Source: Isoetes taiwanensis (taxonomy: Eukaryota; Streptophyta; Lycopodiopsida; Isoetales; Isoetaceae). From it: 64,000 bases of DNA. A program made the translations under genes and the position numbers. A model generated the notes under the pieces. The model was not told the DNA's origin, made no database searches, and saw nothing but the letters and a program-made list of their open reading frames with translations. The stretch lies in the NCBI GenBank assembly GCA_021234155.1, contig JAJEKV010000051.1:6422761-6486760 (forward strand), given 5' to 3'. Below, piece by piece: positions 468 through 46,128 of this stretch; position 1 is the stretch's first letter; the number at the start of each line of letters is the position of its first letter.

Positions 468-948
468 TGTGACGTTCCTAACCGACATGCCCTTAACCAA
501 CTGGGCAAAACCGTCTAGACGTTTATGAGTAGTCGCTTCTACCCATTTATGCCGGTGTCTCGGGAACGCCCCACATGCACATTTCAAGGTTCGAATACTC
601 GAGCGGTCTACCATGGGCCCGTTACAGTCTCTCCTACTAAGACTATGCTCGTCCTCGAGCATCCAAGACTATGATTTAACCATGTATACCAGTGCCACTG
701 TGATTACGAAGATATCAAGACTATGCTATTACCCATGAATATATAGGCACCCATGGAGACTCGAACTCGAGACCTGCTCTGATACCAATTGTAACGTTCC
801 TAACCGACATGCCCTTAATCAACTGGACAAAACCGTCTAGACGTTTATGAGTAGTCGATTCTACCCATTTATGCCGGTGTCTCGGGAATGCCCCACAGGC
901 ACATTTCAAGGTTCGAATACTCGAGCGGTCTACCATGGGTTCGTTACA
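468..948 (-). mobile_element. TRIM retrotransposon inserted in CRN-b
   Basis: A 481-bp terminal-repeat retrotransposon in miniature. Both LTRs are 159 bp (468-626 and 790-948), start TG and end CA, and differ at a few sites. The complement of a plant initiator-tRNA-Met primer site (TGGTATCAGAGCAGG on the minus strand) lies at 773-787, two bases from the right LTR. A purine tract on the minus strand (GTAGGAGAGA) abuts the left LTR. The element is flanked by a perfect 5-bp target duplication, GACTC (463-467, 949-953). It has no coding capacity, so an autonomous partner must have mobilised it. The same insertion is in all CRN-b copies. Confidence 0.9.
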
Positions 949-953
949 GACTC

Positions 954-1033
954 AGTGGTGGTTTATTTTGATGGTTTGAAGGTAAGGGAGAGCTGGAGTA
1001 CAAGCCAGTTTTGGGGTTACATGTGGGACGTTA
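954..1033 (+). pseudogene. CRN-b fragment downstream of the TRIM
   Basis: CRN-like sequence resumes directly after the TRIM target duplication. It encodes VVVYFDGLKVRESWSTSQ and FWGYMWDV, matching residues about 143-169 of CRN-a. Similarity stops at the GTTAG at 1033, where CRN-a continues with a methionine and histidine. This shows the TRIM landed inside a once longer CRN-b gene that had lost, or later lost, its NTPase C-terminal half. Confidence 0.7.
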
Positions 1034-1394
1034 GGGGAGGGTGGCCATTGGCTGCGCAGGTCCCACATATGACGTGGAAATTACCCTCTGCGGACGTGGA
1101 AAAATGTTAAATGCGGGCGTGGAAAATGCCAGTCGCGGAAGTGGAAAATGCTAAATGCAAATTCTTAGACTGAAGTTCACGGCTGCGCTACCAGACCACA
1201 TCAGCGCTGCTTGCTCGTTTCAGCTGCTATTTGGATGATCTGGAGTGTTGCCGGATGATGGAGGTCCGCATTCTTTGACAAATAATCTGTGCTATTAAAA
1301 AATGGTGATCTTCTGTAACCATTTTCATGAATTAACTCTTGTCCAGATTTAGTTTCTCTCAAGATAAATCTCTGTTTACTCAGTTTGGAGTCTA
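1034..1394. other. Noncoding spacer with short ACGTGGAAA-type repeats
   Basis: No gene is visible. A short direct motif (ACGTGGAAA, GCGTGGAAAATGC, GAAGTGGAAAATGC) recurs four times between 1071 and 1155. The same stretch in the inverted copy is the target of the 3.3-kb TIR transposon. Confidence 0.5.
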
Positions 1395-2083
1395 CATTTC
1401 GTTTTAGAGTCTATAAACACGAATGTACGATGGTAATACAAGATATAATGCCCTTTTATACATCAAGCAACTATGCATCACCAACCATGCATTCAATACA
1501 TATACAGAATCAGTCAGATATGCATCAAAGTAAAACATAGGTTTAACACATGTGGAGCAATATTGCTTGCAACACTTAATCATCATGGAAAATATTGGTA
1601 GAAATAAATAAGGTTGGCTAAATTGTTTACACATGGACTTCTAAATTGTTTACACATGGAATTCTTAGCAATTGGTTTCGAACAAGTAGGAACAAATGAG
1701 AGAAGTGTAGACAACGAGGAATATACATTTCATTTTAGAGTCTATAAACACGAATGTACGATGGTAATACAAGATATAATGCCCTTTTATACATCAAGCA
1801 ACTATGCATCACCAACCATGCATTCAATACATATACAGAATCAGTCAGATATGCATCAAAGTATTTTTTTTTGTCGTCCTTCAAAAAAAAAAAAAAAAAA
1901 AGATATGCATCAAAGTAAAACATAAGTTTAACACATGTGGAGCAATATCGCTTGCAACACTTAATCATCATGGAAAATATTGGTAAAAATAATAAGGTTG
2001 GCTAAACTGTTTACACATGGAATTCTAAATTGTTTACACATGGAATTCTTAGCAATTGGTTTCGAACAAGTAAGAACAAATGA
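1395..2083. repeat. 331-bp direct tandem duplication with poly(A/T) insertion
   Basis: Unit 1 starts at 1395 and unit 2 at 1726, giving a 331-bp period; they share nearly every base. Unit 2 also carries a T9 run, GTCGTCCTTC and an A18 run before a second GATATGCATCAAAGT, which looks like slippage at a duplicated short segment. On the minus strand each unit contains TATAAAAGGGC, a good TATA-box match. ORFs read through it are low-complexity and unlikely to be genes. It recurs at 10395, 26696 and, inverted, near 50290-50945. Confidence 0.8.
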
Positions 2084-2938
2084 GAATAGAATAGAATAGA
2101 ATATGATTTTATCGTCCACGGAGACCAACTGGCCTATGGGACCCAAGTACAAAGAGAGAGCAGCAGAGAAGTGTAGACAATGAGGAATAAGGGTAAACAA
2201 TAAGGAAAGAAATGGATTTGAATATATGCCTCTAGCTTGCAAGACCAAGGCTTTAATCAAGGACCCAAGGTGTAATTTTAAAAAACAGAGCATCTATCAA
2301 GTCATTGGTCAAAGAAAAAGGGTTCTGTTTACGGCCAAACAGGGCCAGAATAATAGGGTTTGCGGCCAAACCAGCGACCAAGAACATGGTCGAATCTGTG
2401 TGGACAGGTGTAAACAGAGTCGGAAATGATTAAGGTAGCAAGCTTTGCAATTTAGGTTAAGGCAACAAGCCTTGACGCAAGGATAGATTTGGTTTGAATC
2501 CGGCTTCAACAGATTCTTATGGCTAGATCCAACAACAAGAGTCATATCTTTGGGTCAAGGCCTAGTTACATGGCCCGATTCTGAGCAAAGGCTCTACTTT
2601 TGGAGTAAAGCTCCCGTCTCTAGGACAAGCTGCAGGTTTTTCAAGAACTGGACTGAGAATTAACATTCAAATTTAATAAGGTAACACAGCTCGAAGGCAA
2701 CAGTGCTAAATTCTGCAAGGAAGAGACTAGACCAGGATGATGCTGGTGATGTCTTCTCTATCAGTTATTGATTTCTTACTTCTTTTGTACAAAAGAATTA
2801 CAGGACTGCTAAAGTCATCCTATCCTTAGAATCTCATTCATTTACTCCAGAGTTGTCACCTACAGTATAGGAAAGAGTTAGCTGACTGAAGCAGCCGCAT
2901 TCTCTGCATTCTCTGTGTCTTCTGCAGGTGTGTACTAG
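2084..2938. other. 5' flank of CRN-a1
   Basis: I see no gene in this stretch. It ends with a pyrimidine-rich TCTGTGTCTTCTGCAG and then GTGTGTACTAG before the CRN-a start codon. A 3' splice site of a 5'-UTR intron would fit the TGCAG at 2921-2928; a donor was not found. The segment is almost identical upstream of all CRN-a copies. Confidence 0.4.
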
Positions 2939-4050
2939 ATGAAGCGGAAAAATGAGAATGTTGTGGAGGTGTTTGGATTCGGCGAGTCCTGGAACTTTGA
3001 GGCCGACACCTCAGTGGAAGAAGTGATCTCTTTTTTAGCTATGAAATTTACGGTGCCTTGTGATGACATGGTCATTATGGATCAAACTTTGTCCCCTCCA
3101 CTGATTTTGAAGAAATCATCAGTCCTAAGTTCAGGGTGCAGGTATGTTGCCAAAAGGATTCACAAGCCAGACACTTATCCTCATCGTTCATTTGCGGTTG
3201 GGAGCACTGTACATCCCGAGCATCACTTTTATGTGCCCCCTGACGTGGACGAGCTCGTCTCTCAGCTTGCAGCTGCCAAATACTGTGTGCTTTGTGGTGC
3301 AAGACAAAGTGGAAAGAGCACAATGGCGATTGCTGCCAAGAAAAGGCTGACTTGTGAAACAGATGCAGTGGTGGTTTATTTGGACAGTTTGAAGGTAAGG
3401 GAGAGCTGGAGTACAAGCCAGTTTTGGGGTTACATGTGGGACGTTATGCATGGAAAGTGCAACTACTTTTTCCCATCCAGACCTCCAGGAGAGGAATGCA
3501 CAGATTGGAGCTTTAAATCTCTGTTTTTAAAAAATACTAGCTTATTTTTTAAAAACAGAGATTTAAAGCTCCAATCTGTGCATTCCTCTCCTGGAGGTCT
3601 GGATTTTTAATTGTGGACGAGGCTGATTCTTTGTTGAACGCCTCAAATGTTTGCCTTGATGAATTTTTTAGCACAATAAAAGAGTTGAAGAGTGGGATTG
3701 ATGAATACAATCTGGCAGGGTTTTTGTTGGTTGGTGTTGAAACTGTGAAGGATCTCTTGCAAGATCAGTACCACATGCGGCGTAAGAATGCAGAGAAGAT
3801 GAATCGTGTTAGACTCTCACCATTTTCCCATAGTTTTTATGTGGAGCCAACAAGGTTTTCCATACATGATATCCAACAGTTGCTAACACAAGCAAATTCT
3901 GAACAACCAGGGATGCCAATCGAAGTTGTACCAATTTCTACTTCTGTTTTTCAGATGACAGGTGGTCACAAGGGCTTAGTGGGGTCATGTTTAGAATACA
4001 TGATGAATCAAAGTTTGTGGAGCTACAATCAATGGCTCCAGGCAGTAGAG
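2939..4050 (+). pseudogene. CRN-a copy 1: Crinkler NTPase, palindrome-broken, 3' truncated
   Basis: The frame from 2939 encodes a ubiquitin-like header (about residues 9-75) and a P-loop NTPase start with GARQSGKST at about 120-128. A 62-bp inverted duplication (3475-3604) then adds a tail ending in a TAA. The NTPase resumes in another frame at about 3611 with Walker B (IVDEADSLLN) and the STAND-like TGGHKGLVG motif. At 4050 the gene stops abruptly and the sequence becomes the ParB-like gene in antisense, so winged helix, intron and endonuclease are missing. Known: Crinklers combine such a header, NTPase and nuclease. The copy cannot make a full product. Confidence 0.75.
3475..3604. repeat. 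62-bp perfect inverted repeat inside CRN-a1
   Basis: Arms 3475-3536 and 3543-3604 are perfect reverse complements of 62 bases around a 6-base loop (CTAGCT). The left arm is CRN coding sequence; the right arm is its inverted copy inserted before Walker B. The inverted CRN copy at 44942-46095 has a single arm and an ordinary short join instead, so the palindrome is derived. RNA from this locus would form a very stable hairpin. Confidence 0.95.
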
Positions 4051-4472
4051 TTTCTTGCAGATGCTTTATGATTCGTCTTGGAATCTTCCATGAGGGACGA
4101 CTCGTATTTTTGGAAGTCAAACACGAAGCACAGAATCTTATAATCGACGGTGTCCTCTACCGTGACAGCAAAGAACTCTAGCCGCTTCTGTCTATTTACG
4201 AGTCTCATGTTGAGGATGATGCCCAAACGAGAGACCTCTGAGCTGTCCACTTTATTGACAAGAAGACAAAGTTCTCTTCTTTTATCTCCAAAGGCCTCAA
4301 CGCCTTTCTCGCATGGTATAGCTCTAACGCACCACGGATGAGCATACATATTTGTGTTCTTGTCTGTTGACACGCGTGATGTGCCGACAAATCTGGTTGG
4401 AGGTGCAAAGACCTCATTTAAACCGAGCAGCAGTTTTTCAGACCCTGCAGGTAGTAGGAAAGGGTGAACCAT
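4051..4472 (-). pseudogene. ParB-like gene, 5' fragment (copy in B1)
   Basis: Reading leftward, a start codon at 4470-4472 opens MVHPFLLPAGSEKLLLGL and continues through FVFDFQKYESSLMED. The frame then runs into CRN-a antisense sequence at 4050, which adds a few unrelated residues. This is the N-terminal quarter of the gene seen in longer form at 19182-20783; the basic and ParB-like parts are absent here. The frame is uninterrupted over this stretch, unlike the longer copy, so some frameshifts in that copy may be errors. Function of this N-terminal segment is not recognised. Confidence 0.55.
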
Positions 4473-5500
4473 GAGAAATGAAAGTGCTTAACCAAATATA
4501 ATAAGTTCTATATACATTTAATGGCTAGCTATATTCTATACAAAATGGTGTGGCCGCGCTATTATTGAACTAAGCTTGAGTTATTTCCTCTCCAAGTTAT
4601 TCCCCCTCTTTGCTAACGACTTCCTATTTCAGCTGGAAAGACCTCGTCCTTGCTAATAACTTCCTATTTCAACTGGATCGTGGCCATATAGTCTTAATAA
4701 GACTACCTCCATACAGATGGTACAAGCACAACAGGTAAACAGGAATTCATAGTACTGGAATATATAAACTATGTGTAATATGTAGTATCTACAATAAAGA
4801 CAAGCCGCAGGAATCCTATAGTGAATAAGCGGGCACCATTTGATACAATATAGGGCTTGCAAATGGCCCATTTTAGGAACAAAGAGCATGCTTGAGCTAA
4901 GCTTAATTAGGTTCCATTACTTGCTAATGAAAATAGTCCCCCCTGTATTTTTGAGGATCTCTTATTTGGCAAAGAAACTGTAAATAGAAGTCACTAGCAA
5001 GTACCTGAAGCACACAAATCCTAAGCATACTTATGCACATGAAGTAGGCATAGGGTTTTGTATACTCCCAGTATTTGCTAATGAGAATACCAAACTGTAT
5101 TCTTTGAGGATCTCTTCTTTGACATACCAGAATTAGAAGTTACTAAATAGATTTGTCAAACACAGTATCTACACAGCATATGCACAGGAATACTAAAGTG
5201 AATAGCGCGGGCGCACCATTTGATACAATGTAGGACTTGAAAATGGCATACCAGAATTTGAAACCACTAAATAGATGTGTCAATAAGTAGTAGCTACTCA
5301 GCACAAGCACAGGAATCGTATAGTGAATAGCGCGGGCGCACCATTTGATACAATGTAGGGCTTGCAAATGGCACATCAGAATAAGAAACCACTAAATAGA
5401 TGTGTCAATACGTAGTAGCTATTCAGCACAAGCACAGGAATCCTATAGTGAATAGCGCGGGCGCACCATTTGATACAATGTAGGGCTTGCAAATAAGCAC
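4473..5500. repeat. Spacer with 125-bp tandem repeats
   Basis: No gene seen. From about 5080 the sequence repeats with a 125-bp period; the core GCGCGGGCGCACCATTTGAT starts at 5205, 5330 and 5455, and a decayed version lies near 4823. Each unit also holds AGCACAAGCACAGGAATC and CACTAAATAGATGTGTC. GC-rich cores in AT-rich DNA stand out. Confidence 0.8.
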
Positions 5501-5572
5501 AATTTCATTAAAATGGGAAAATAGCAGGAAAACTGGACTAGATTTGCAAATCATACATTAGACATACATACC

Positions 5573-5708
5573 TTCCACACCCACACATGTATACACACAC
5601 ATGCATATAGACATGTCTACACACACATGTCTACACACACATGCGTATAGACATGTCTACACACGCATGTGTATATACACACATATGTGTGTCTAACATA
5701 GACATGTC
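5573..5708. repeat. Imperfect CA/TG microsatellite with ACATGT palindromes
   Basis: Alternating purine-pyrimidine DNA made of ACACAC, GTGTGT and repeated TAGACATGTCTA palindromes. Conserved in B2 (21885-22019) and the inverted copy (58850-58980). Confidence 0.8.
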
Positions 5709-5782
5709 CATTGCAATTCTGGAAGTGGCAAGTCCTGGCTAATCATATGAGCAAGTTCTGGAAAAAAAAAAAAATCTTCTAC

Positions 5783-6028
5783 GAATTAGCAGGGATGGTC
5801 TATAAGGCGGTTTCATTGGAAAAAAAAAAGATTTGTATTTTGTACAAATGGAGCGATTTTTTGACATCAACGCACTATTTGTTATTGCTTTAGATGTACG
5901 GTCCAAATGACGCGGCAATTTTGGGTCAATTTCCGCGCCATTTGGACCCGTTATCTAAATACATAAAAAGTGGCACGTTTATGTACGAAAATCGCTCCAT
6001 TTGCCTGATAAACCATCCCTGCTAATTC
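5783..6028. mobile_element. 246-bp MITE-like foldback element
   Basis: Ends are inverted repeats of about 25 bp, GAATTAGCAGGGATGGT plus a few more bases. Inside is a second nested inverted repeat: AAATGGAGCGATTTT pairs with AAAATCGCTCCATTT, and TTTAGATGTACGGTCCAAAT pairs with its complement in the B2 copy. There is no coding capacity. A target duplication is not clear. Copies at 22091-22336 and 58520-58765 have the same length. Confidence 0.75.
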
Positions 6029-6700
6029 AGTCGCAAGAAGTAAAGTGTAACCACTGTAACATCATTAGGACAAAGGGTAGGGTAGAGACAAATAGCGCGG
6101 CCGCACCATTTAATTTTAAATAGGCGGCCACGCTACTTGAAAGTAACTAACTATATTAAAAAAATAAGTAAACCATGCGACGGAAACATGATGTACTACA
6201 TTAGAAAAAAATAGTATATTAGAATTTACAAATTAAATGGCGCCGCCACTCCATTTGATCTCAAAGATACTTCATACATAATATAAACCAACCTACTTAC
6301 ATATGCAGCTATTTATAGAATTTACAAATTAAGTGGCGCCGCTCCATTTGATCTCAAAGATACTTCATATTTAATATGACTTGAAACCACGAGTGACAAC
6401 TTCACCATGCATAAGGAGATTTAAAATTTTTGACATCTGCACAGAAAATCAACAAAATTTAGATTTGAAAAATGAAATGGCGCCGCCGCTCCATTTGATC
6501 ACAAAGATAGTTAATATTACACAAACTTACATATGCCACTCTATACATAATATTATTTATGTATATTTCGCATAGGAACATCATCCACAGTGGTTATGAA
6601 CCTCACTTCAAAGCTTACACAAAAAATGGACAACCTGTCCGAGTAACCATGGATCCTAGGACTGAGCCAAAGGAGGCTATAACATTAGACAAACAAGAAC
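6029..6700. repeat. Spacer with repeated GGCGCC / CCATTTGAT cores
   Basis: No gene. A unit of GC core plus CCATTTGATC and CAAAGATA recurs at about 6237, 6333 and 6478, and a related GCGGCCGCACCATTTAAT at 6097. The CCATTTGAT half also ends the 125-bp repeats to the left, so these may share an origin. Confidence 0.6.
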
Positions 6701-6739
6701 ATGAAGCTTAAGTCCTAAATGCTGCTGTAGAAGAGTGTC

Positions 6740-7316
6740 TAGAGGTTTGTCAGGTCCCAACGTTCCTTCTTGTGTTCCTCCTTACAAGAAGGGCCATGCA
6801 TCGGAACTCAGTTGGATCTAGATCCCCACATGCTAAGCACACCCGAAGCGGTCCGTAAACGTCAACTCATGCTCATAGTTTGGGTGATTGCAGATTTGGC
6901 TGAATTTATTCAGCTCCCTTGCACATTTTTTTGACCTTTTTTGCATCCATGTCCTGCACCCTCTTATCCTCAGCTAGCACACCCGTTCCTTTCATTACAT
7001 TTAGATGATACTCGTGGTCCCACATCTCCCCGTGCATGGTGCGGTTTATTGCGGTTGAAGCAATGCACCCTCCCCGCATTCTACGCACCGGAATGCCCTT
7101 GCCCAAATAGATACATTTCTCGGAAACAAACACACCATAGATATCTTGGCGCCCATCTAATGCCATGTTAAAGGGGACGTAAAAGCCTCCCTCTGGCTCA
7201 TCTGCCTTCCTTTTTCTTCCCCTGCCATCTCCATCTCCCTGTCCCTGTAAAAGATCCATCTCTACCTCCTCCACGATCCCTTTGCCCTTCAAATCCGCAC
7301 CCCCACAAGCTGCCAT
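6740..7316 (-). pseudogene. Small Cys/His-rich zinc-finger gene, decayed copy
   Basis: Start codon at 7314-7316 opens MAACGGADLKGKGIVEEVEM, then an acidic/basic linker (GRKRKADEPEG) and FYVPFNMALDG. The zinc-binding part is damaged: where the intact copy at 57298 reads CRECGRVHCFNC, this copy has a frameshifted stretch without most cysteines, then returns to frame at MWDHEYHLN. A further CNHPNYEHE..CLACG finger lies downstream in the +1 frame. A TATA box sits about 115 bp upstream. This copy is most likely non-functional; the family is not recognised. Confidence 0.6.
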
Positions 7317-7430
7317 CTCTGTATCGCGGCTAAAAAACTGGAATACTCACAGCGAGATGGTCACTGTCGGAAGCGCCACATAAACACAAGCAAAGGAAAG
7401 TAAGGCGCCCTAAAAGAAATCCACAAACCT

Positions 7431-7488
7431 CTTTATAGACGATCCTGCATGCAATTCGTATCTTCGGGAATACGAAAAGAATTCGTAT
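7431..7488 (-). promoter_or_regulatory. TATA box and three ATACGAA half-sites upstream of the zinc-finger gene
   Basis: On the minus strand TATAAAG (7431-7437) lies about 115 bp before the start codon. Just upstream are ATACGAA, TTCGTAT and ATACGAA half-sites (7455-7461, 7470-7476, 7482-7488 on the plus strand reading). The same layout precedes the intact gene at 57298; in B2 the half-sites are mutated. Confidence 0.5.
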
Positions 7489-9031
7489 CCTCGGTTGGTT
7501 ACAGCAAATTTAGCGTATATAAGGCATTGCCACGCGAGCATTTCCGAAATTGCGTGTCATGCCCACGTGAGATTCGGTTTGTCTCGCCTCACCGCCGGGT
7601 ATGCCACTTGGCAAATGGTAGTTCTGGCTAGATAGATTGACTAGGCTAGGGGTAGATAGGATTTTTTTTTTTTTTTTCAAAATGGCACAAAAACCAAGAA
7701 ATGGATTTAAAGGCTAAAGAAGAGGGCTATTTTAGAAATTCAAAAGCCTAGGTAGCATATTGTTTTATGCCCCATGCACCTAGAGCCTATAGGGATGAAG
7801 ATCTGGCCTAGGTCAAAGTTTTTGACTCAAGATTTGATGATATAGCTAGGGTACATGTGGACATAGGTTTTTTGAATAAGTCAACTAGTGTAAGGGTCTT
7901 GAAGCACATTTCCCAAGGTTGTTGGAGCAACATGTTGACCAACTTTTGACTGGGTCAACAAACATTTTGCCTTGACTTGATGAAGTGAACTTGACTTTGA
8001 TGAGGTGGATTTGACTTGGTGATGTGGACTTTGACTTGATGATGTGGACTTTGATGAGTGGTCAAAAGGAGATGATGATGTAACCAAGGTAGCTCATGAG
8101 CCTAGTCATCATGACATGTCACCTTTTTTGGTGAGTTGGCATAATTTTGCCTAGCTCTTTTTTTCTCTTTTTTCTTTTTTTTTTTCTTTTTTTTTGAGCT
8201 ATCATTTGAGCATCCTCGCTCTTGCTACCATGGCTATGAAGTGTGTGAGATGATGAATGAAGATGAGATTTGACATGACTATGGTGGATTGACAAAACAT
8301 TTCAAAAGGCAACTTCCTTGGGATGTGTGCTTAAGGTAAGAAATGGACTACAAAGATCAAAGCTAAGGATGTGTATGGAGATTTGTTGAAGAATGCAAGG
8401 AGAAAAGTGAATGGCAATGGAATGGAAAGGCTAATCAAGAGATGTTTGATCCAAGAAACATATGAAACCAAGTGAACTGCTCAAAATACCATTAGAAGCT
8501 CTTCCAAACTTTGTGGGGGTCTTCATGCTTGCTTGAACATCCTCTAAAGTCCATTCATTCTTGATTTCTATCTCAATGTCCTCATTTGGTCTTCTGCAAA
8601 TGATGTCTGCTAATCTTCCCTGGTTCTAGTAACAAAGGTGCAATGGTTAGAACTCTTCTATGTTGCCTGCCATATGCTGGCAACACTTGAGTTCTTGGAT
8701 CAGAGTGACAAAGTAGGCAGAGTCCCCCTCATATTCGAATAGGTCACCCTTGTTGGATGAACCTGATGCCTTTTTCCCTCTGGGCATACGAAAATTATTG
8801 GAGCCGCTCAATGGAAATAGCTCAATTGGAGGGCTAAATATATGAAGTTGGAGGGCATTATTCGGCTATCAAATGTGGGGAATGAACTAGATACATTTGC
8901 ATCTTCCAAATAATTATATAAAACCCATATAATCAGGATGGATGAATTAATCTTCAATGTTTGTGACCAAAAAATCACATTAGATCCATCTACATGTGCT
9001 GATATGTTGGTCTTCTGTAGGTGTATACTAG
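7489..9031. other. Intergenic region between zinc-finger gene and CRN-b2
   Basis: No supported gene. It holds a T15 run near 7664, a TTGAC-rich tandem array (separate entry), a T-rich low-complexity tract at about 8150-8195 and, at its end, TTGGTCTTCTGTAG before the CRN-b start, parallel to the CRN-a leader. The poly-Ser ORF on the minus strand is a by-product of the array. Confidence 0.5.
7930..8062. promoter_or_regulatory. Tandem TTGACT (W-box-like) array
   Basis: A roughly 20-bp unit, CTTGACTTTGATGAGGTGGA, repeats about five times. Counting neighbours (TTGACC, TTTTGACTGGGTCAA), at least seven TTGAC cores occur in this stretch. Established: plant WRKY factors bind TTGAC[CT]. Whether this array controls CRN-b, about 1 kb downstream, is inference. 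Confidence 0.45.
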
Positions 9032-9450
9032 ATGAGGCGGAAAAATGAGGAGAGGGATGTGGAGGTGTTTGGATTCGGCGAGCCCTGGAACTTTGAGGCC
9101 GACACCACAGTGGAAGAAGTGCTATGTTTTAGCTACGAAGGTGCCGCGGTGATGACATAATCATTATGGATCAAACTTTGTCCACTCCGGTGATTTTGAA
9201 GAAAGCATCGCCCCGCAAGTATGTTGCCAAAAAGGATTCGCATAAAGCCGGACACTTATCCTCATCGTTCATTTTGCGGTTGGGAGCATTGTAGATCCCA
9301 AGCATCACTTTTACGTGTCCCTTGGCGTGGACAAGCTCGTCTCTCGGCTGCGGCATTTGCCAAATACTTGCGGTGCTTTGTGGTGTAAGACAAATTGGAA
9401 ATAGCACAATGGCGATTGCTGCTAAGAAAAGGTTGAATCTTTGGAAATAG
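9032..9450 (+). pseudogene. CRN-b copy 2, degraded
   Basis: ATG at 9032 begins the same MRRKNEERDVEVFGFG header as the intact copy at 55615, but from about 9121 the sequence carries many small indels, for example around CTATGTTTTAGCTACGAAGG and CGGCTGCGGCATTTGCC, which destroy the frame. The dead P-loop (CAAATTGGAAATAGC) is recognisable near 9388. The 46-bp duplication and TRIM follow. Confidence 0.65.
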
Positions 9451-9497
9451 CACAATGGCGATTGCTGCTAAGAAAAGGCTGAATCTTGAATAGACTC

Positions 9498-9938
9498 TGT
9501 GACGTTCCTAACCGACATGCCCTTAACCAACTGGACAAAACCGTCTAGAGCGTTTATGAGTAGTCGCTTCTACCCATTTATCTTGGGTGTCTCGGGGCAT
9601 GGGCAATCCGCGATCTCTCCTACTAAGACTATGCTCGTCCTCGAGCATCCAAGACTATGATTTAACCATGTATACCAGTGCCACTGTGATTACCAAGATA
9701 TCAAGACTATGCTATTACCCATGAATATATAGGCACCCATGGAGACTCGAACTCGAGACCGCTTTCGATACCAATTGTAGCGTTCCTAACCGACATGCCC
9801 TTAACTAACTGGACAAACCCGTCCTAGACGTTTATGAGTAGTCGATTCTACCCATTTATGCTAATTGTCTGGGGAATGCCCCACGTGCACATTTCAAGGT
9901 TCGAATACTCGGCGGTCTACCATGGGCTGGAATTCTGA
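9498..9938 (-). mobile_element. TRIM copy 2, degraded
   Basis: Orthologous to the 468-948 element: left GACTC at 9493-9497, LTR start TGTGACG, primer-site complement near 9760-9777. The left LTR has lost about 50 bp and the right end and target duplication are scrambled, so the right limit is approximate. Confidence 0.7.
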
Positions 9939-10394
9939 CTTCGGTGGTGGTTTATTTTTGGTTTTGAAGGTAAGGGAGAGGCGGAGTACAAAAAGCCGTT
10001 TTGGGGTTACATGTGGGACGTTAGGGAGGATGGCCATTGGTCTTGCAAGAAAGTCCCACATATGACGTGGAAATTACCCTCTGCCGGACGTGGAAAAATG
10101 TTAAACGCGGGGAAAATGCCGGGCCGATGTGGAAGTGGAAAATGCTAAACGCAAATTCTTAGACTGAAGTTCCGCGCTGGCTGCTTACTACGGACCACGT
10201 GGCCCCCTTTCGCTTCTACCGCTATTTGGATGATCCGAGTGTTGCTTGGGATGATGGAGGTCCGCATTCTTTGACAAATAATGCATTGCTATTAAAAAAA
10301 ATGGTGATCTTACGTAACCATTTTCATGAATTAACTCTTGTGATTTTTAGTTTCTCTCAAGATAAATCTCTACATTTTTCAGATTTTGAGTCTA

Positions 10395-11080
10395 CATTTC
10401 GTTTTAGAGTCTATAAACACGTAATGTAATACGATGGTAATACAAGATATAATGCCCTTTTATACATCAAGCAACTATGCATCACCAACCATGCATTCAA
10501 TACATATCTAATCGATCCGATATGCATCAAAAAGTAAAACATAGGTTTAACACATGTGGAGCAATATTGCTTGCAACACTTAATCATCATGGAAAATATT
10601 GGTAGAAATAAATAAGGTTGGCTAAATTGTTTACACATGGACTTCTAAATTGTTTACACATGGAATTCTTAGCAATTGGTTTCGAACAAGTAGGAACAAA
10701 TGAGAGAAGTGTAGACAACGAGGAATATACATTTCATTTTAGAGTCTATAAACACGAATGTACGATGGTAATACAAGATATAATGCCCTTTTATACATCA
10801 AGCAACTATGCATCACCAACCATGCATTCAATACATATACAGAATCAGTCAGATATGCATCAAAGTATTTTTTTTTGTCGTCCTTCAAAAAAAAAAAAAA
10901 AAAAAAAAAAAGATATGCATCAAAGTAAAACATAAGTTTAACACATGTGGAGCAATATCGCTTGCAACACTTAATCATCATGGAAAATATTGGTAAAAAT
11001 AATAAGGTTGGCTAAACTGTTTACACATGGAATTCTAAATTGTTTACACATGGAATTCTTAGCAATTGGTTTCAACAAGT
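10395..11080. repeat. 331-bp tandem duplication, copy in B1
   Basis: Same pair of units as at 1395, with starts at 10395 and 10730. The A-run between GTCGTCCTTC and GATATGCATC is A23 here versus A18 in copy 1, which fits slippage or miscalling. DNA from 10024 to 10394 and from 11081 to 11947 holds no gene that I can see. Confidence 0.75.
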
Positions 11081-11947
11081 AAGAACAAATGAGAATAGAA
11101 TAGAATAGAATATGATTTTATCGTCCCGGGTAGACAACCGGCCTATGGGACCCAAGTACAAAGAGAGAGCAGCAGAGAAGTGTAGACAATGAGGAATAAG
11201 GGTAAACAATAAGGAAAGAAATGGATTTGAATATATGCCTCTAGCTTGCAAGACCAAGGCTTTAATCAAGGACCCAAGGTGTAATTTTAAAAAACAGAGC
11301 ATCTATCAAGTCATTGGTCAAAGAAAAAGGGTTCTGTTTACGGCCAAACAGGGCCAGAATAATAGGGTTTGCGGCCAAACCAGCGACCAAGAACATGGTC
11401 GAATCTGTGTGGACAGGTGTAAACAGAGTCGGAAATGATTAAGGTAGCAAGCTTTGCAATTTAGGTTAAGGCAACAAGCCTTGACGCAAGGATAGATTTG
11501 GTTTGAATCCGGCTTCAACAGATTCTTATGGCTAGATCCAACAACAAGAGTCCTTATCTTTGGGTCAAGGCCCCAGTTACATGGCCCGATTCTGAGCAAA
11601 GGCTCTACTTTTGAGTAAAGCTCCCGTCTCTAGGACAAGCTGCAGGTTTTCAAGAACTGGACTGAGAATTAACATTCAAATTTAATAAGGTAACACAGCT
11701 CGAAGGCAACAGTGCTAAATTCTGCAAGGAAGAGACTAGACCAGGATGATGCTGGTGATGTCTTCTCTATCAGTTATTGATTTCTTACTTCTTTTGTACA
11801 AAAGAATTACAGGACTGCTAAAGTCATCCTATCCTTAGAATCTCATTCATTTACTCCAGAGTTGTCACCTACAGTATAGGAAAGAGTTAGCTGACTGAAG
11901 CAGCCGCATTCTCTGCATTCTCTGTGTCTTCTGCAGGTGTGTACTAG

Positions 11948-14237
11948 ATGAAGCGGAAAAATGAGAATGTTGTGGAGGTGTTTGGATCTGGCGAGTCCTG
12001 GAACTTTGAGGCCGACACCTCAGTGGAAGAAGTGATCTCTTTTTTAGCTATGAAATTTACGGTGCCTTGTGATGACATGGTCATTATGGATCAAACTTTG
12101 TCCCCTCCACTGATTTTGAAGAAATCATCAGTCCTAAGTTCAGGGTGCAGGTATGTTGCCAAAAGGATTCACAAGCCAGACACTTATCCTCATCGTTCAT
12201 TTGCGGTTGGGAGCACTGTACATCCCGAGCATCACTTTTATGTGCCCCCTGACGTGGACGAGCTCGTCTCTCAGCTTGCAGCTGCCAAATACTGTGTGCT
12301 TTGTGGTGCAAGACAAAGTGGAAAGAGCACAATGGCGATTGCTGCCAAGAAAAGGCTGACTTGTGAAACAGATGCAGTGGTGGTTTATTTGGACAGTTTG
12401 AAGGTAAGGGAGAGCTGGAGTACAAGCCAGTTTTGGGGTTACATGTGGGACGTTATGCATGGAAAGTGCAACTACTTTTTCCCATCCAGACCTCCAGGAG
12501 AGGAATGCACAGATTGGAGCTTTAAATCTCTGTTTTTAAAAAATACTAGCTTATTTTTTAAAAACAGAGATTTAAAGCTCCAATCTGTGCATTCCTCTCC
12601 TGGAGGTCTGGATTTTTAATTGTGGACGAGGCTGATTCTTTGTTGAACGCCTCAAATGTTTGCCTTGATGAATTTTTTAGCACAATAAAAGAGTTGAAGA
12701 GTGGGATTGATGAATACAATCTGGCAGGGTTTTTGTTGGTTGGTGTTGAAACTGTGAAGGATCTCTTGCAAGATCAGTACCACATGCGGCGTAAGAATGC
12801 AGAGAAGATGAATCGTGTTAGACTCTCACCATTTTCCCATAGTTTTTATGTGGAGCCAACAAGGTTTTCCATACATGATATCCAACAGTTGCTAACACAA
12901 GCAAATTCTGAACAACCAGGGATGCCAATCGAAGTTGTACCAATTTCTACTTCTGTTTTTCAGATGACAGGTGGTCACAAGGGCTTAGTGGGGTCATGTT
13001 TAGAATACATGATGAATCAAAGTTTGTGGAGCTACAATCAATGGCTCCAGGCAGTAGAGTCCGAACTTAGTACATACATTTTTGGCCAACAAACCTATAA
13101 AAGGATCCTGACGGCATTCAAGAAGAATGCGGCCAATGAGAAGTTTGAACTTCTCCTTTCATTCCTTAGAGTAGGCAGTCGTAAATGTGATGATGAGATG
13201 ATGGTGGAACTCAGGGACCTTATTGCAGAAGGTATTCTGTTTGCAGAAAATGTGAAGGTGTTTGATGAGTACGAGGTCCGAATCTCTTCACCATTGCTTA
13301 GGTCTGCCATACTTCGACACTGCCACGTTACTAGTGAGACAGTTGCCTCACCTCCAGATCCCTTTGAGGTAGATCCTGAGTGGGTTCTTTTAGAAACCAT
13401 TAGAAGTTTGGATGGGGATACAATGTGCAGACCAGAATCTCTCAATGCATCAGGTGGGATATCTGAATATTCTTATCAATTTAATCGATTCACTAGAATC
13501 AAGGCCGTTCTCAAGCAAGCGTATCCGCTCATTGGAGCTAAGGTCCTTCCTGAAGGCAAGCAAGCTGTGGAGTACTTGGAGAAACGCAATACACAGGTAG
13601 CTTGTAACTATTTAATTTGTCAATCAATTCAGCTTCTGTTGCTGTAAAATTTAGGGGGTACGCAAAATTGTGTGAAAAATGCAACACTTGTTGTCTATCT
13701 AGACATCAAGGGAAATCATTAACTTTAGTTTATTAGTTCTAGCAGATATGCAAGAACATTCAAATGAAGGTTGTAACTGTACCTAACTCCCTCCCGAAAG
13801 CACATCCATCTTTTAAGTGATGCTACTATATGCCATGTCTGAACAAGAAAGCTTTAGGCTTCTGAAAGTCTTTGTTACTAATTGTTTTTTTGTAGGAGAG
13901 GCTCGACATCTTAGTGCGGGATGATGGTAATTTCGCCAAGTTCGGCTTCGCGTTAGTTGCGGATGACGATGTGCAGGGTCACATGTCAAGAGCTCTGCGG
14001 TATCACAGGGAGCATTCTGCCCAAGTATATGTGGTGAATTTTACCCTTCAGGATGAGCCACAGATGGTCGTTCCTGATCATGAGTCTATTATTTTTGTCT
14101 CGGTTCAATTCAACCCGAGTGGAGATCAAACAACAGCAAATGTCACTGTTGTCGACACCCAGGGACTTGTAGGAGCACGAGTTAAAAAATTGGAGTTGAA
14201 GCATTGGGATGGTAAGATTAGGTTTGACCATTTCTGA
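11948..14237 (+). pseudogene. CRN-a copy 2: Crinkler header-NTPase-winged helix-REase, most complete copy
   Basis: From ATG 11948: ubiquitin-like header (about residues 9-75); GARQSGKST Walker A at 120-128; then a frame-breaking palindrome. From 12622: VDEADSLLN Walker B, TGGHKGLVG, a winged-helix-like stretch ending ISSPLLRSAI, and ISEYSYQFNRF, the first helix of the endonuclease fold. CAG|GTAGCT (exon end 13596) and TTTTTTTGTAG|GAG (exon start 13896) define a phase-0, 299-bp intron. Exon 3 starts ERLDILVRDDG and stops at 14235-14237. Known: this order matches eukaryotic Crinkler NTPase-nuclease proteins, effectors or conflict-type nucleases acting in the nucleus. The endonuclease E-x-K-like position reads alanine (GFALVADD), so catalysis is doubtful. 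Without the palindrome it would be one gene. Confidence 0.8.
12484..12613. repeat. 62-bp perfect inverted repeat inside CRN-a2
   Basis: Identical to the palindrome at 3475-3604 (arms 12484-12545 and 12552-12613, 6-base loop). It sits exactly between the Walker A and Walker B coding parts. Confidence 0.95.
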
Positions 14238-15760
14238 AGTTGTTTGTGTGGATTTTTGTTGAAGTAGATTTTTGCTGAAGACTTCTGGAAATTACATTTT
14301 ATGTTTTAAGGATTGTGGTGTTGACTGACATGAGTATTATAGACCTGGTTTTAGTCCTTTATTTTTTCATATATTACTATGGGGTCATATGCGAAACTGT
14401 TCTAACCAGTCAGTTTCTTCTCAACAACATATGAAGTGTGTGTCTGCTTTATACCTCTTAGACCAAAACAATTCTCATACGGCTGTCCCAAACTCAGAGC
14501 AGGAATTGGAATTGAAGACATCCCAAACTCAGGGCAGGTGTTGGAGTTCTACATTGAATGAATTTGGCAGAGGTTTTTGTGGCAGATGCAATTTGAAGAA
14601 GACTTTTTTACCTGGTGCTTGCTTGTCGTTGTAGGTTTTGCTTTGGATTTGAGTTTTCAGAGATGTTGTCGAAATTACCACAGAGAATTAGGTCTTCAGT
14701 TATCCCCAAAACTGGAAAACCCAGATCCTAGAGGCTGCCGGCAGAAATTAATAAATGAAGGAATCGTAGCTGAGATTTCCAGCCTTTTAAATCTAAAGGG
14801 TCTTCACCAATTGAACATTGTTATTCGAGAGATAAAAATGAAGGCGTAACATCTGGGAAGCAAGCAGCAGCTCTAGTATAACGAGTTGCATCTTTGGTGA
14901 CATGGCAGCATTCTGCCATCATGTTGGCAATCTGCAGATGTGGCAATCCCTATGTGTTGAAAGATCATCTAGATTGTGTTTCTTTGAAAGTCAAGAGTGA
15001 CGTCCTTTGTGTCCATTAATTCTTCATAAAAATAAAACAAGTAAATTTGCTACAAAGCCCATTTATATTAATGACCGCTACGTTATCTAGGGGGGTGTTG
15101 AACAACAAAAGCAAGTCGCTGTTGGTGGCTGTTCATTTTCACCAACTTTTATGACCTTATGAGGTGGTAAGTGCGACAATTGGGCCTTTCCTTTTCTACA
15201 CCACCATGAGACTGTTCTCAACATATCAAGTAGAAAAAAGAAGGGGAATCAACAAACATTCAATGTTGTTCAGATGTAATCAGGTGGGGATAACAACATT
15301 TCCACAAATCTGAACAAGCCAAGTCCATTGCAAACATTGACATATACTTCATCTCGTTGCTACTCTGATTATGGTATACCTTCATCTCGTTGCCACTCTG
15401 ATTTATGGTATTATGGTATACCTTCTTTTATACCATCTTCACATTCCCTCCCCCATATATATATAACATGTAACTATTTAACACGGCTATATCTTCTTCA
15501 ATAACATTATGCATGGCGCGAGGGAGCATGCATGTGATGCGCCTACCTAAGCCCTTCGGACAATAACTGATTATACCTTGGATTGGAAGCAATGAACTAT
15601 GACATCTTTAAGTACTCCGGAAAAGATAATGCAGCCAAGCAGTTTCCAATCCAACCAACCCAATCAAGGCTTAAAGTTCTCTTGATTACAGTAGCCTTTA
15701 GAGGATAAATAAGTTCAAGAATATCATATATTTGGATAAAAAATCACAAATGTAAAGCTT

Positions 15761-15808
15761 TTAAGGATTTTTAAGATTTTTAAGGATTTTAAAGATTTTA
15801 AGGATTTG
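15761..15808. repeat. (TTAAGGATTT)n short tandem repeat
   Basis: About four to five imperfect units of TTAAGGATTT/TTAAGATTTT. Counterpart in B2 near 32059-32110. Confidence 0.75.
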
Positions 15809-16571
15809 AAATTAAAAAAAACACGTTGGTGATGTAGATTGCCCGCTTTTGATCTCCCCTTCCAGAGAGATCATGCCGCCTAAACGCGTTGCTACTTCAA
15901 GCTCCCACAAACTTATCATACAACAGCAAAGCTACATTCATTCCATTGCACGACAATGTAATTGGACAATTAATTTTGTCCTCACGTCCTAATTAGCCCC
16001 CCTCGGCTTCTTCATCCCCCTTGGTTCAATGTTGCCATCCACATTCTTTTCCCTCTTGTTAGCAAATACCGCTTGCTCATTCCCGTAACAAGAACCACAA
16101 TATGACAAAACAACACTAGAAGGGGCACTTGAAACTGAGCAATAACAGGCGCCACCAATATGAAAGCACAAAACAAAACGCAGATTTCTCTACATTTATC
16201 CAAAAATGTAGCAACACCATTACCAAAAATGAAAAAGGGCAAAATAGACTCCTGGCGTACATAAAAGGAAACATCGCCGCTATATCCGGCCGCCATCACG
16301 CCCCAAAATCCTTTTTATGCGGCGTGGATAAGGCTTGCCAAAATCAGCGCATGCGTAAATAACAACTTGAAAAAGAAGCATTTTAAAATGAGATGCTAAA
16401 GTGAGATTACAAAATAGTCTTTATAGACCAAGGTGAATGCAATAAGAAAAAGAGGGAGAAATTATCATGGACCTGATACTCTCTCAATCTCCTGCCTCCA
16501 TCATGTGGGGTTTGCATCTCAGTGATCATCCTCGTGCTTGCCCATGCAGGGGTTCACGTTTTTATTTATAG

Positions 16572-16713
16572 GCCAATATATGTCTTGTCTAACATTATAT
16601 GTGCTAGTGGTTTGCTTACGCTAGTTTCCACTTTTAAGACACGCCAATATATGTCTTGTCTAACATTATATGTGCTAGTGGTTTGCTTACGCTAGTTTCC
16701 ACTTTTAAGGCAT
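16572..16713. repeat. 71-bp tandem duplication
   Basis: Two units starting GCCAATATATGTCTTG at 16572 and 16643, nearly identical. Same in B2 at 32865-33006. Confidence 0.85.
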
Positions 16714-17408
16714 GATTTCTTAAAGTTTGTCATTGAGTGGGCATCTTAAGTATTTCTTTCTGAATGGTGTGGATTTGTTCATTTAAAGGACATAAAGCCA
16801 TGTACAGTGGTGGGGGCAGGACCCATCTGGGTGTGTTGTATATTGTCCCATAAGCTACGGCTTCCTATGGTCGTTAATAATAATTCATTCATTCATTCAA
16901 AAAGAGGTAGATGAGCGCCTACTATATGAAATGAAGTGTTTCACTACTGGTAATGAAGTAGACACAGAACTTCCACTACATGACATTCAAATCATGATGA
17001 TTTGAATCTCTTGAGTCATCTCTTGATTCTTGACCTTGCTTTTCGTTCTTCCTTGTCCTTGCATTGGAGGAGTGCTTCCTTCTTGCATGTGTCCTTGTGA
17101 TCCCTTGTTCTTCGTTTCCACTTTTGGCCTGCTCTTTGTTCATTTCTATGTCCTTTGTTTTACCTTTTCTCCATCTCTCTGCGTTTATCTTCATCCATGG
17201 ACCATTAAATCCAACGTACTATGCCTAGAACGTTTCTTAAGTGGTAGTTGCAAAATGTTCCAGTGGCTAAGTGGTGGTAGCACTTGGCACCTTCTCTAGG
17301 GTTTGTGATATAGTTGCACTTCATTTGGAGCTTCAAATCTTCATAATACCAATCATCACAAATTTGGCATGCTTTCATTAACTTGCCACGAGCTTTGACA
17401 ATATACCT

Positions 17409-21836: not shown

Positions 21837-21884
21837 AGGAAAACTGGACTAGATTTGCAAATCATACATTAGACATACATACCT

Positions 21885-27385: not shown

Positions 27386-28245
27386 AATGAGAATAGAATA
27401 GAATAGAATATGATTTTATCGTCCACGGAGACCAACTGGCCTATGGGACCCAAGTACAAAGAGAGAGCAGCAGAGAAGTGTAGACAATGAGGAATAAGGG
27501 TAAACAATAAGGAAAGAAATGGATTTGAATATATGCCTCTAGCTTGCAAGACCAAGGCTTTAATCAAGGACCCAAGGTGTAATTTTAAAAAACAGAGCAT
27601 CTATCAAGTCATTGGTCAAAGAAAAAGGGTTCTGTTTACGGCCAAACAGGGCCAGAATAATAGGGTTTGCGGCCAAACCAGCGACCAAGAACATGGTCGA
27701 ATCTGTGTGGACAGGTGTAAACAGAGTCGGAAATGATTAAGGTAGCAAGCTTTGCAATTTAGGTTAAGGCAACAAGCCTTGACGCAAGGATAGATTTGGT
27801 TTGAATCCGGCTTCAACAGATTCTTATGGCTAGATCCAACAACAAGAGTCATATCTTTGGGTCAAGGCCTAGTTACATGGCCCGATTCTGAGCAAAGGCT
27901 CTACTTTTGGAGTAAAGCTCCCGTCTCTAGGACAAGCTGCAGGTTTTTCAAGAACTGGACTGAGAATTAACATTCAAATTTAATAAGGTAACACAGCTCG
28001 AAGGCAACAGTGCTAAATTCTGCAAGGAAGAGACTAGACCAGGATGATGCTGGTGATGTCTTCTCTATCAGTTATTGATTTCTTACTTCTTTTGTACAAA
28101 AGAATTACAGGACTGCTAAAGTCATCCTATCCTTAGAATCTCATTCATTTACTCCAGAGTTGTCACCTACAGTATAGGAAAGAGTTAGCTGACTGAAGCA
28201 GCCGCATTCTCTGCATTCTCTGTGTCTTCTGCAGGTGTGTACTAG

Positions 28246-30535
28246 ATGAAGCGGAAAAATGAGAATGTTGTGGAGGTGTTTGGATTCGGCGAGTCCTGGA
28301 ACTTTGAGGCCGACACCTCAGTGGAAGAAGTGATCTCTTTTTTAGCTATGAAATTTACGGTGCCTTGTGATGACATGGTCATTATGGATCAAACTTTGTC
28401 CCTCCACTGATTTTGAAGAAATCATCAGTCCTAAGTTCAGGGTGCAGGTATGTTGCCAAAAGGATTCACAAGCCAGACACTTATCCTCATCGTTCATTTG
28501 CGGTTGGGAGCACTGTACATCCCGAGCATCACTTTTATGTGCCCCCTGACGTGGACGAGCTCGTCTCTCAGCTTGCAGCTGCCAAATACTGTGTGCTTTG
28601 TGGTGCAAGACAAAGTGGAAAGAGCACAATGGCGATTGCTGCCAAGAAAAGGCTGACTTGTGAAACAGATGCAGTGGTGGTTTATTTGGACAGTTTGAAG
28701 GTAAGGGAGAGCTGGAGTACAAGCCAGTTTTGGGGTTACATGTGGGATGTTATGCATGGAAAGTGCAACTACTTTTTCCCATCCAGACCTCCAGGAGAGG
28801 AATGCACACAGATTGAGCTTTAAATCTCTGTTTTTAAAAAATACTAGCTTATTTTTTAAAAACAGAGATTTAAAGCTCCAATCTGTGCATTCCTCTCCTG
28901 GAGGTCTGGAATTTTAATTGTGGACGAGGCTGATTCTTTGTTGAACGCCTCAAATGTTTGCCTTGATGAATTTTTTAGCACAATAAAAGAGTTGAAGAGT
29001 GGGATTGATGAATACAATCTGGCAGGGTTTTTGTTGGTTGGTGTTGAAACTGTGAAGGATCTCTTGCAAGATCAGTACCACATGCGGCGTAAGAATGCAG
29101 AGAAGATGAATCGTGTTAGACTCTCACCATTTTCCCATAGTTTTTATGTGGAGCCAACAAGGTTTTCCATACATGATATCCAACAGTTGCTAACACAAGC
29201 AAATTCTGAACAACCAGGGATGCCAATCGAAGTTGTACCAATTTCTACTTCTGTTTTTCAGATGACAGGTGGTCACAAGGGCTTAGTGGGGTCATGTTTA
29301 GAATACATGATGAATCAAAGTTTGTGGAGCTACAATCAATGGCTCCAGGCAGTAGAGTCCGAACTTAGTACATACATTTTTGGCCAACAAACCTATAAAA
29401 GGATCCTGACGGCATTCAAGAAGAATGCGCCAATGAGAAGTTTGAACTTCTCCTTTCATTCCTTAGAGTAGGCAGTCGTAAAATGTGATGATGAGATGAT
29501 GGTGGAACTCAGGGACCTTATTGCAGAAGGTATTCTGTTTGCAGAAAATGTGAAGGTGTTTGATGAGTACGAGGTCGAATCTCTTCACCATTGCTTAGGT
29601 CTGCCATACTTGACACTGCCACGTTACTAGTGAGACAGTTGCCTCACCTCCAGATCCCTTTGAGGTAGATCCTGAGTGGGTTCTTTTTAGAAACCATTAG
29701 AAGTTTGGATGGGGATACAATGTGCAGACCAGAATCTCTCAATGCATCAGGTGGGATATCTGAATATTCTTATCAATTTAATCGATTCACTAGAATCAAG
29801 GCCGTTCTCAAGCAAGCGTATCCGGCCATTGGAGCTAAGGTCCTTCCTGAAGGCAAGCAAGCTGTGGAGTACTTGGAGAAACGCAATACACAGGTAGCTT
29901 GTAACTATTTAATTTGTCAATCAATTCAGCTTCTGTTGCTGTAAAATTTAGGGGGTACGCAAAATTGTGTGAAAAATGCAACACTTGTTGTCTATCTAGA
30001 CATCAAGGGAAATCATTAACTTTAGTTTATTAGTTCTAGCAGATATGCAAGAACATTCAAATGAAGGTTGTAACTGTACCTAACTCCCTCCGAAAAGCAC
30101 ATCCATCTTTTAAGTGATGCTACTATATGCCATGTCTGAACAAGAAAGCTTTTAGGCTTCTGAAAGTCTTTGTTACTAATTGTTTTTTTGTAGGAGAGGC
30201 TCGACATCTTAGTGCGGGATGATGGTAATTTCGCCAAGTTCGGCTTCGCGTTAGTTGCGGATGACGATGTGCAGGGTCACATGTCAAGAGCTCTGCGGTA
30301 TCACAGGGAGCATTCTGCCCAAGTATATGTGGTGAATTTTACCCTTCAGGATGAGCCACAGATGGTCGTTCCTGATCATGAGTCTATTATTTTTGTCTCG
30401 GTTCAATTCAACCCGAGTGGAGATCAAACAACAGCAAATGTCACTGTTGTCGACACCCAGGGACTTGTAGGAGCACGAGTTAAAAAATTGGAGTTGAAGC
30501 ATTGGGATGGTAAGATTAGGTTTGACCATTTCTGA
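28246..30535 (+). pseudogene. CRN-a copy 3: full-length layout with several frameshifts
   Basis: Same domain order and intron as copy 2: start 28246, GARQSGKST, palindrome 28791-28911, Walker B from 28920, exon end 29893 (CAG|GTAGCT), exon 30194-30535. Relative to copy 2 there is a lost C at about 28401 (before the P-loop), then lost or gained single bases at about 29428, 29481, 29575, 29612 and 29688 that break the winged-helix part. The endonuclease exon is unchanged. The run of single-base indels is what either decay or a poor consensus would give. Confidence 0.75.
28791..28911. repeat. Palindrome inside CRN-a3, slightly eroded
   Basis: The left arm has a two-base gain and a one-base loss (AATGCACACAGATTGAGC) relative to the right arm; otherwise it matches the 62-bp inverted repeat of copies 1 and 2. 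Confidence 0.9.
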
Positions 30536-44941: not shown

Positions 44942-46095
44942 CAAACTTCTCATTGGCCGCATTCTTCTTGAATGCCGTCAGGATCCTTTTATAGGTTTGT
45001 TGGCCAAAAATGTATGTACTAAGTTCGGACTCTACTGCCTGGAGCCATTGATTGTAGCTCCACAAACTTTGATTCATCATGTATTCTAAACATGACCCCA
45101 CTAAGCCCTTGTGACCACCTGTCATCTGAAAAACAGAAGTAGAAATTGGTACAACTTCGATTGGCATCCCTGGTTGTTCAGAATTTGCTTGTGTTAGCAA
45201 CTGTTGGATATCATGTATGGAAAACCTTGTTGGCTCCATATAAAAACTATGGGAAAATGGTGAGAGTCTGACATAAACACGATTCATCTTCTCTGCATTC
45301 TTACGCCGCATGTGGTACTGATCTTGCAAGAGATCCTTCACAGTTTCAACACCAACCAACAAAAACCCTGCCAGATTGTATTCATCAATCCCACTCTTCA
45401 ACTCTTTTATTGTGCTAAAAATTCATCAAGGCAAACATTTGAGGCGTTCAACAAAGAATCAGCCTCGCCCACAATTAAAATCACTTTGATAGGTAGCTTA
45501 TTTTTAAAAACGTAGATTTAAAGCTCCAATCTGTGCATTCCTCTCCCCGGAGGTCCGGATGGGAAAAAGTAGTTGCACTTTCCATGCATAACGCCCCACA
45601 TGTAACCCCAAAACTGGCTTGTACTCCAGCTCTCCCTTACCTTCAAACCGGCCCAAATAAACCACCATCGTGATCTGTTTCACAAGTCGCCTTTTCTTGG
45701 CAAAGAATCGCCATTGTGCTCTTTCCACTTTGTCTTGCACCACAAAGCACACAAGATTTGGCAAACCGAAGTCGAGAGACGAGCTCGTCCACGCGGGGGC
45801 ACATAAAAGTGATGCTCGGGATGTACAAAGTGCTCCCAACCGCAAATGAACGATGAGGATAAGTGTCCGGCTTGTGAATCCTTTTGGCAACATACCGCAC
45901 TCGAACTTAGGACTGATGATTTCTTCAAAATCGTGGAGGGGACAAAGTTTGATCCATAATGACCATGTCATCACAAGGCACCGTGAGATTTCATAGCTAA
46001 AAAGAGATCACTTCTTCCATCGAGGTGTCGGCCTCAAAGTTCCGTGACTCGCCGAATCCAAACACCTCCACAACATTCTCATCTTTCCGCTTCAT
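44942..46095 (-). pseudogene. CRN-a copy 4, without palindrome, 3' truncated
   Basis: Start codon 46093-46095. Header, GARQSGKST and Walker B region are recognisable but the header to P-loop part is frameshifted many times. Between the SFKSLF-like segment and Walker B it has a single arm followed by AATAAGCTACCTATCAAAGTG, then TTTTAATTGTGG: no inverted duplication. The ORF 45401-44931 covers KSGIDEYNLAGFLLVGVETV to KNAANEKF, after which an LTR fragment cuts it off. It therefore preserves the ancestral join that the other three copies lost. Confidence 0.75.
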
Positions 46096-46128
46096 CTAGT
46101 ACACACCGCAGGAAGACACAGAGAACCC

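Follow-up and report, generated by a model that had tools for sequence, protein, structure and literature searches.

How does a perfect hairpin come to stand inside a protein-coding gene, and does it have any effect beyond that gene? We consider this question for a quillwort, Isoetes taiwanensis, in a 64,000-nucleotide stretch of its genome assembly (contig JAJEKV010000051.1; the whole stretch is hereafter called the window). A sequence-only reading had described there a 62-bp inverted duplication between the Walker A and Walker B motifs of a gene family that it named CRN-a, and had proposed that the duplication arose by a template switch and could give small interfering RNAs acting on the whole family. 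The features of the locus are listed in Table 1.

Table 1. Palindromes, single-arm copy, gene segments and reading frames in the window (position 1 is its first letter)
Feature	Position	Strand	Remarks
5′ open frame of the broken gene	2939..3610	+	Walker A GARQSGKST; stop after 223 codons, past the palindrome frameshift
Left arm, palindrome copy 1 (original gene sequence)	3475..3536	+	62/62 reverse complement of 3543-3604
Loop CTAGCT, copy 1	3537..3542	+	untemplated C, then TAGCT opening the inverted tract; single-arm copies have AAAAAATAAGCTACC
Right arm, palindrome copy 1 (inverted copy)	3543..3604	+	followed by gene flank TTTTAATTGTGGACGAG (Walker B)
Downstream frame with Walker B IVDEADSLL	3553..4068	+	out of phase with the 5′ frame; right arm open in this frame
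Gene segment around copy 2	11890..13060	+	2 differences from copy 1 in 1171 aligned bases
Palindrome copy 2	12484..12613	+	sequence identical to copy 1
Gene segment around copy 3	28188..29358	+	6 substitutions from copy 1 in 1170 aligned bases, plus 2 gap columns
Palindrome copy 3	28781..28910	+	right arm 61 bp unbroken; left arm +CA/-G
Gene segment of the 45-kb single-arm copy	45029..46125	-	CAG/CTG-type changes throughout the 5′ half, none in the 3′ half
Single-arm, non-palindromic copy	45494..45560	-	3/4 CAG/CTG sites in the arm altered

The window holds three copies of the palindrome. Copies 1 and 2 (3475-3604 and 12484-12613) have arms that are reverse-complementary at 62/62 positions around the 6-nt loop CTAGCT, in agreement with the perfect arms described for them earlier, and the inverted tract of copy 1 spans 67 bp (3538-3604). 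In copy 3, the right arm (28850-28910) is complementary to the left arm of copy 1 over 61 bp without a mismatch; the next base is A, as against T in copies 1 and 2. The left arm of copy 3 carries GCACACAGATTGAG in place of GCACAGATTGGAG, which limits uninterrupted pairing to the innermost 29 bp; the slight erosion noted for this copy is thus present, and its start had been placed 10 positions off, at 28791. The best hairpin score in five shuffled windows was 0-12 versus 62 for the real palindrome, and a chance origin is excluded. At a score of at least 18 and a loop of at most 40, the only other hairpins in the window are at two MITE-like places, 22153-22311 and 58545-58703. These foldbacks have arms of 76 bp and a loop of 7, begin with CAAATGGAGCGATTTT, and sit within inverted duplicates of one another. 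No comparable hairpin was found in the stretches L032-L034 (21.5 kb; score of at least 20, loop of at most 20), nor in six 10-kb samples of the genome, which yielded 48,909 usable non-N bases (L060 is all N, and L059 contains 1091 N).

In a search of the whole genome (1,658,258,908 bases in 1110 contigs), the arm sequence occurs at at least six places, namely the three palindromes and three single-arm copies, one in the window (45494-45560) and two elsewhere (C908:3962203-3962269 and C978:649012-649078). All six are members of the same NTPase-like family. The single-arm copy in the window lies on the minus strand and is the inverted copy that the sequence-only reading had called CRN-a4. Searching with the downstream part of the gene body recovered seven family members, the seventh at C978:666k, so that three members with the palindrome stand beside four without it; no further palindrome was found in the genome beyond the three in the window, and this copy count is a lower bound. 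The four non-palindromic members (C908, C978:649k, C978:666k and the 45-kb copy in the window) are all uninterrupted at the site and retain TAAGCTACCTA..CAAAGTGATTTTAAT in place, and the palindrome is therefore the derived state and the non-palindromic form the ancestral one. The palindrome-free C908 paralogue (L034:2132-3805, minus strand) has an uninterrupted NTPase-like frame of 557 aa, the sole full-length unbroken frame among the seven members found.

The alignment defines the junctions of the event. At the site, C908 reads AAAAAATA-AGCTACCTATCAAAGTG-ATTTTAATTG, and palindromes 1 and 2 read AAAAAATA-C-TAGCTTATTTTTT...GGTCTGGAT-TTTTAATTG. In these two copies 18 bp are replaced by 68 bp, a net gain of 50 nt, the insert being one C without a template plus an inverted copy of 67 bp (66 bp if the final T is excluded). 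As a reverse complement, the inverted tract covers the sequence before it and, past the left arm, AGCTA as well; it opens with TAGCT, the complement of the five bases that follow the left arm in the non-palindromic copies. This overhang polarizes the event, since it identifies the left arm as original and the right arm as derived. The earlier proposal that the right arm is an inverted copy of the left plus a few bases, replacing about 18 bp, is borne out by the four non-palindromic members. At the right junction, copies 1 and 2 have GGATTTTTAA versus GGAATTTTAA in copy 3. Copy 3 can be read as a direct join and copies 1 and 2 as a join with T, which makes the resumption point ambiguous by one base; if the right junction of copy 3 is the original one, 17 bp were replaced by 67 bp. 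The difference calls for a later change in one lineage. The locus thus presents both an insert that is the reverse complement of nearby sequence (62/62 positions of the arms) and an ancestral state with defined junctions in four aligned members, two of which, C908 and C978:649k, have little base-calling noise.

Base-calling noise is a concern in this assembly, and the 45-kb copy is a case in point. Its identity (90.4% over the whole segment and 93.2% in the 5′ part) gives an apparent divergence of 7-10%, which we reject at face value: CAG/CTG sites are broken at 21/41 positions (20/41 if one insertion within a motif is excluded) versus 8/167 for control trinucleotides. The corresponding counts in C908 are 1/41 and 5/167. 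C978:666k has 35/41 CAG/CTG sites broken, but 68-70/167 controls too, which points to true divergence, poor sequencing or both. The same pattern runs through the repeat pairs of at least 500 bp that we examined in the window, where CAG/CTG is broken at 386/2232 sites versus 109/2315 for GAG/CTC (Fisher p 3.7e-44, for sites that recur across pairs and are not independent). Counts are also high for CCG/CGG (334/990 broken) and for triplets starting with CG (465/2181), probably in part through miscalled CAG becoming CGG. Among the affected repeats are 45501-46125 and 9041-11094. The changes are of CAG to CGG or CGA and of CTG to CG or ACG, with indels, and these types led us to reject cytosine deamination. 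The assembly (1658.30 Mb in 204 scaffolds and 909 contigs) is described as built from nanopore, Illumina and Bionano data (PMC8566536), and given the 9.4.1 pore and the Guppy 3.1 base calling, the differences are likely nanopore miscalls left unpolished at cytosines that would be CHG-methylated. Among the titles and abstract openings seen in the literature, none states such miscalls for CHG sites. The argument on the ancestral state is carried by C908 and C978:649k, which show little of the miscall pattern.

Together, these observations support one very recent template switch, that is, a templated inverted insertion, followed by segmental duplication to three copies, a reading to which we give a probability of about 85%. 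During replication or repair of the gene, synthesis would have left its template after AAAAAATA, with one untemplated C added at the switch, copied 66-67 bp of the adjoining sequence in inverted orientation and resumed 17-18 bp onward, directly before Walker B. The outcome would be a perfect 62-bp hairpin and a net gain of 50 nt, with a frameshift and an early stop that leave a broken gene copy, and segmental duplications in the array would then have raised the hairpin to three copies. The single filler base and the few bases shared at the joins are compatible with template switching in replication or with repair of the polymerase-theta type, and we infer that one of these, a switch at the fork or such repair, was at work.

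The three palindromes share the left junction, the filler C and a 6-bp deletion farther down, of which the filler and the deletion are not in the other four members. These common features fit a single event, and the three palindromes probably have a single origin. Segmental duplications pair 4049-18195 with 20350-34497, 611-4051 with 25903-29358, and 628-4051 with 9614-13060. Downstream of the palindrome, copy 1 differs from copies 2 and 3 at 0/440 positions and from C978:649k at 1/440 plus 7 gap columns, and such small differences between copies indicate a young event. One event plus duplication would suffice for three copies and is, from the sequences, the simplest history, although recurrent gene conversion between copies may be an alternative to a single event. 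At position 4051, the similarity of copy 1 to the family stops and sequence matching 20350 onward starts. Copies 2 and 3 carry on with gene sequence where copy 1 ends, and a rearrangement breakpoint at 4051 truncates copy 1.

The net gain of 50 nt shifts the frame and thereby breaks the gene copy. Read from the ATG (2939 in copy 1), the frame ends after 223 codons in both copy 1 and copy 2; copy 3 lacks a base in a run of C and meets a stop beyond it, after 54 codons. The palindrome-bearing copies are presumably neutral pseudogenes. Within 3395-3558, the old coding sequence contains a GTAAGG donor-like site, and the right arm has created a T-rich run with a CAG acceptor-like site after it. Both sites are in phase 0, and a putative splice between them, possibly a chance arrangement, would drop the left arm and rejoin the frames.

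Walker A (GARQSGKST) and Walker B (IVDEADSLL), motifs that we take to be a feature of Crinkler (CRN) proteins, are legible in the sequence. The intact C908 protein matches the Pfam models AAA_22 (E 1.1e-4) and AAA_14 (E 0.0069), both under the curated cut-offs, and the remaining Pfam matches, weaker NTPase-type and chance-level ones, each fall below their own cut-off. Among the Pfam matches listed up to E 10 for the N-terminal piece and for the intact C908 protein of 557 aa, no Crinkler N-terminal domain appears, and the string LFLAK is not in the C908 protein. A single-sequence structure model of the N-terminal 178 aa, made for the question of a ubiquitin-like header, was unusable (mean pLDDT 36.6), and searches of PDB and NCBIfam gave nothing useful. 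The CRN name given earlier is thus unconfirmed, and Crinkler is a possible label for the family.

In work by Allen in 2004, young plant MIRNA loci reportedly arose by inverted duplication of their target gene, and the palindrome invites the same reading. The hairpin would be transcribed from the old gene promoter and diced to 21-24-nt RNAs that repress the intact paralogue and other family members; on the sequences at hand, we consider this unlikely. As in an inverted-duplication MIRNA or hairpin-siRNA gene, both arms of the foldback are similar to a protein-coding gene. Indeed, a transcript over copy 1 would fold as the 62-bp stem that the sequence-only reading had foreseen (-132.7 kcal/mol, z -19.2, with none of 200 shuffles as good), and copy 3 still folds at -118.6 kcal/mol. 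The further proposal that siRNAs from the stem could act on all CRN-a genes needs qualifying: the arm 21-mers are matched at 42/42 in C978:649k and at 38/42 in the intact 557-aa C908 gene, but as assembled at only 13/42 in the 45-kb copy and 0/42 in C978:666k, counts that are probably lowered by miscalls. Published work lends the idea plausibility: in Arabidopsis, 16 MIRNA loci show signs of an origin by inverted duplication of coding genes (PMC1790633), MIR163 is a further precedent (PMC5388894), and an obvious 24-nt peak is reported for the small RNAs of Isoetes sinensis (PMC5569507). Perfectly paired RNA is described as a poor substrate for DCL1 (PMC1790633). In lycophytes, DCL1, 3 and 4 are reported as present and DCL2 as not detected (PMC5569507), and DCL3 or DCL4 is accordingly the enzyme proposed here. 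The hairpin would then be a proto-silencing gene a few mutations from its birth, present at a dose of three, whose siRNAs, made via DCL3 or DCL4, act on the C908 paralogue, a possibility that we regard as doubtful.

Several observations weigh against such a silencing locus. Segmental duplication alone explains the three copies, and their number is therefore no evidence of selection. In Rfam, 0/31 listed matches to the region 2881-4500 reach the gathering score; the top score is 67.1 bits versus a gathering score of 90 (MIR9563), and the microRNA matches probably reflect the hairpin shape. Miscalls at CAG/CTG might stand in for CHG methylation, as a proxy confounded by polishing; they are found at 0/4 arm sites of C978:649k, and with the same confounding the C908 arm has 1/4 sites altered, from C to A, which is not the type of change seen in the miscalls. 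The left arm of copy 3 has changed, unless this is an assembly error. In the arm of the 45-kb copy (45494-45560), 3/4 CAG/CTG sites are altered, and two just upstream and 14 downstream are unaltered. This pattern could reflect a mark limited to the arm or patchy polishing; unlike those of C908 and C978:649k, it could be read in favour of silencing, and polishing confounds both.

The template switch presumably used the adjacent arm as donor of the inverted tract. The inverted donor could instead have been another copy, the right arm being copied from a different family member, for example by gene conversion from the 45-kb copy, rather than from its own neighbour. An inverted copy indeed lies 17-42 kb distant, and C978:649k matches the 67-bp tract 3538-3604 without mismatch; the inverted tract, however, begins at a distance of 5 bp from the switch point, which is what a local switch would give, and the present-day C908 has A at a site where both palindrome arms have C (3478), though this is possibly a later change. 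For the 45-kb copy as donor, the comparison is spoiled by the probable miscalls. On this evidence, we judge a distant donor improbable.

That the hairpin was made in the assembly, from chimeric nanopore reads or polishing errors, is more improbable still. The assembly was reportedly made with a nanopore v9.4.1 flowcell, Guppy 3.1 and racon and pilon polishing (PMC8566536), and the window does contain systematic, patchy errors, which could also account for the changes in copy 3. From a fold-back read, however, one would expect inversion of the entire flank, and correct gene sequence stands on either side of the palindrome. Furthermore, the same left junction and filler base recur at three sites, the downstream flank of copy 1 is unlike that of copies 2 and 3, and the palindrome-bearing copies look clean, with CAG/CTG sites differing at 0/41 between copies 1 and 2 and at 1/41 between copies 1 and 3. 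Insertion of a MITE or another foldback element, suggested by the hairpin shape and by the MITE-like foldbacks in the window, is rejected as having almost no probability: non-palindromic members carry the left arm at the same position as part of the gene itself, all six arm-bearing places belong to this gene family, and no target-site duplication is visible by eye at the junctions.

The palindrome is thus a real and young inverted insertion, probably of single origin, that breaks its gene, and it is probably an instance of known processes. The case is unusually clean, with ancestral copies, event, frameshift and rise in copy number all within one genome, which also retains an undamaged paralogue that could be a target. 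Should the hairpin give rise to small RNAs, it would illustrate, in a lycophyte, how a plant hairpin-siRNA or MIRNA gene begins; should it give none, it would be an ordinary gene-breaking mutation. The CAG/CTG pattern implies that the 'divergence' of repeats in this assembly can be technical, and the miscalls could serve as a crude methylation map.

Among known systems, CRN proteins are reported in land plants (PMC5289972), with which the quillwort family appears to share an NTPase-like P-loop region that holds both Walker motifs; unlike them, it has no Pfam Crinkler match and its C908 member lacks LFLAK, so that membership is putative. Like the young plant MIRNA and hairpin-siRNA loci described in PMC1790633 and PMC3237417, the locus has foldback arms near-identical to a coding family with an intact member. 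In contrast to the young MIRNA loci, the quillwort hairpin lies inside a broken gene copy and has a 6-nt loop, and its small RNAs are hypothetical. The closest parallel concerns the mutation itself: template switches are described as making perfect hairpins, also at microRNA loci (Monttinen and Loytynoja 2022; PMC8794818), and here, too, a reverse-complement copy lies beside its source and a perfect stem probably arose in one event. The system described there comprises mammalian microRNA loci and rRNA genes, whereas the present one is a 62-bp stem in what is probably a lycophyte, and, unlike the cases in that work, the quillwort stem disrupts a coding gene, and segmental duplication then increased its copy number.
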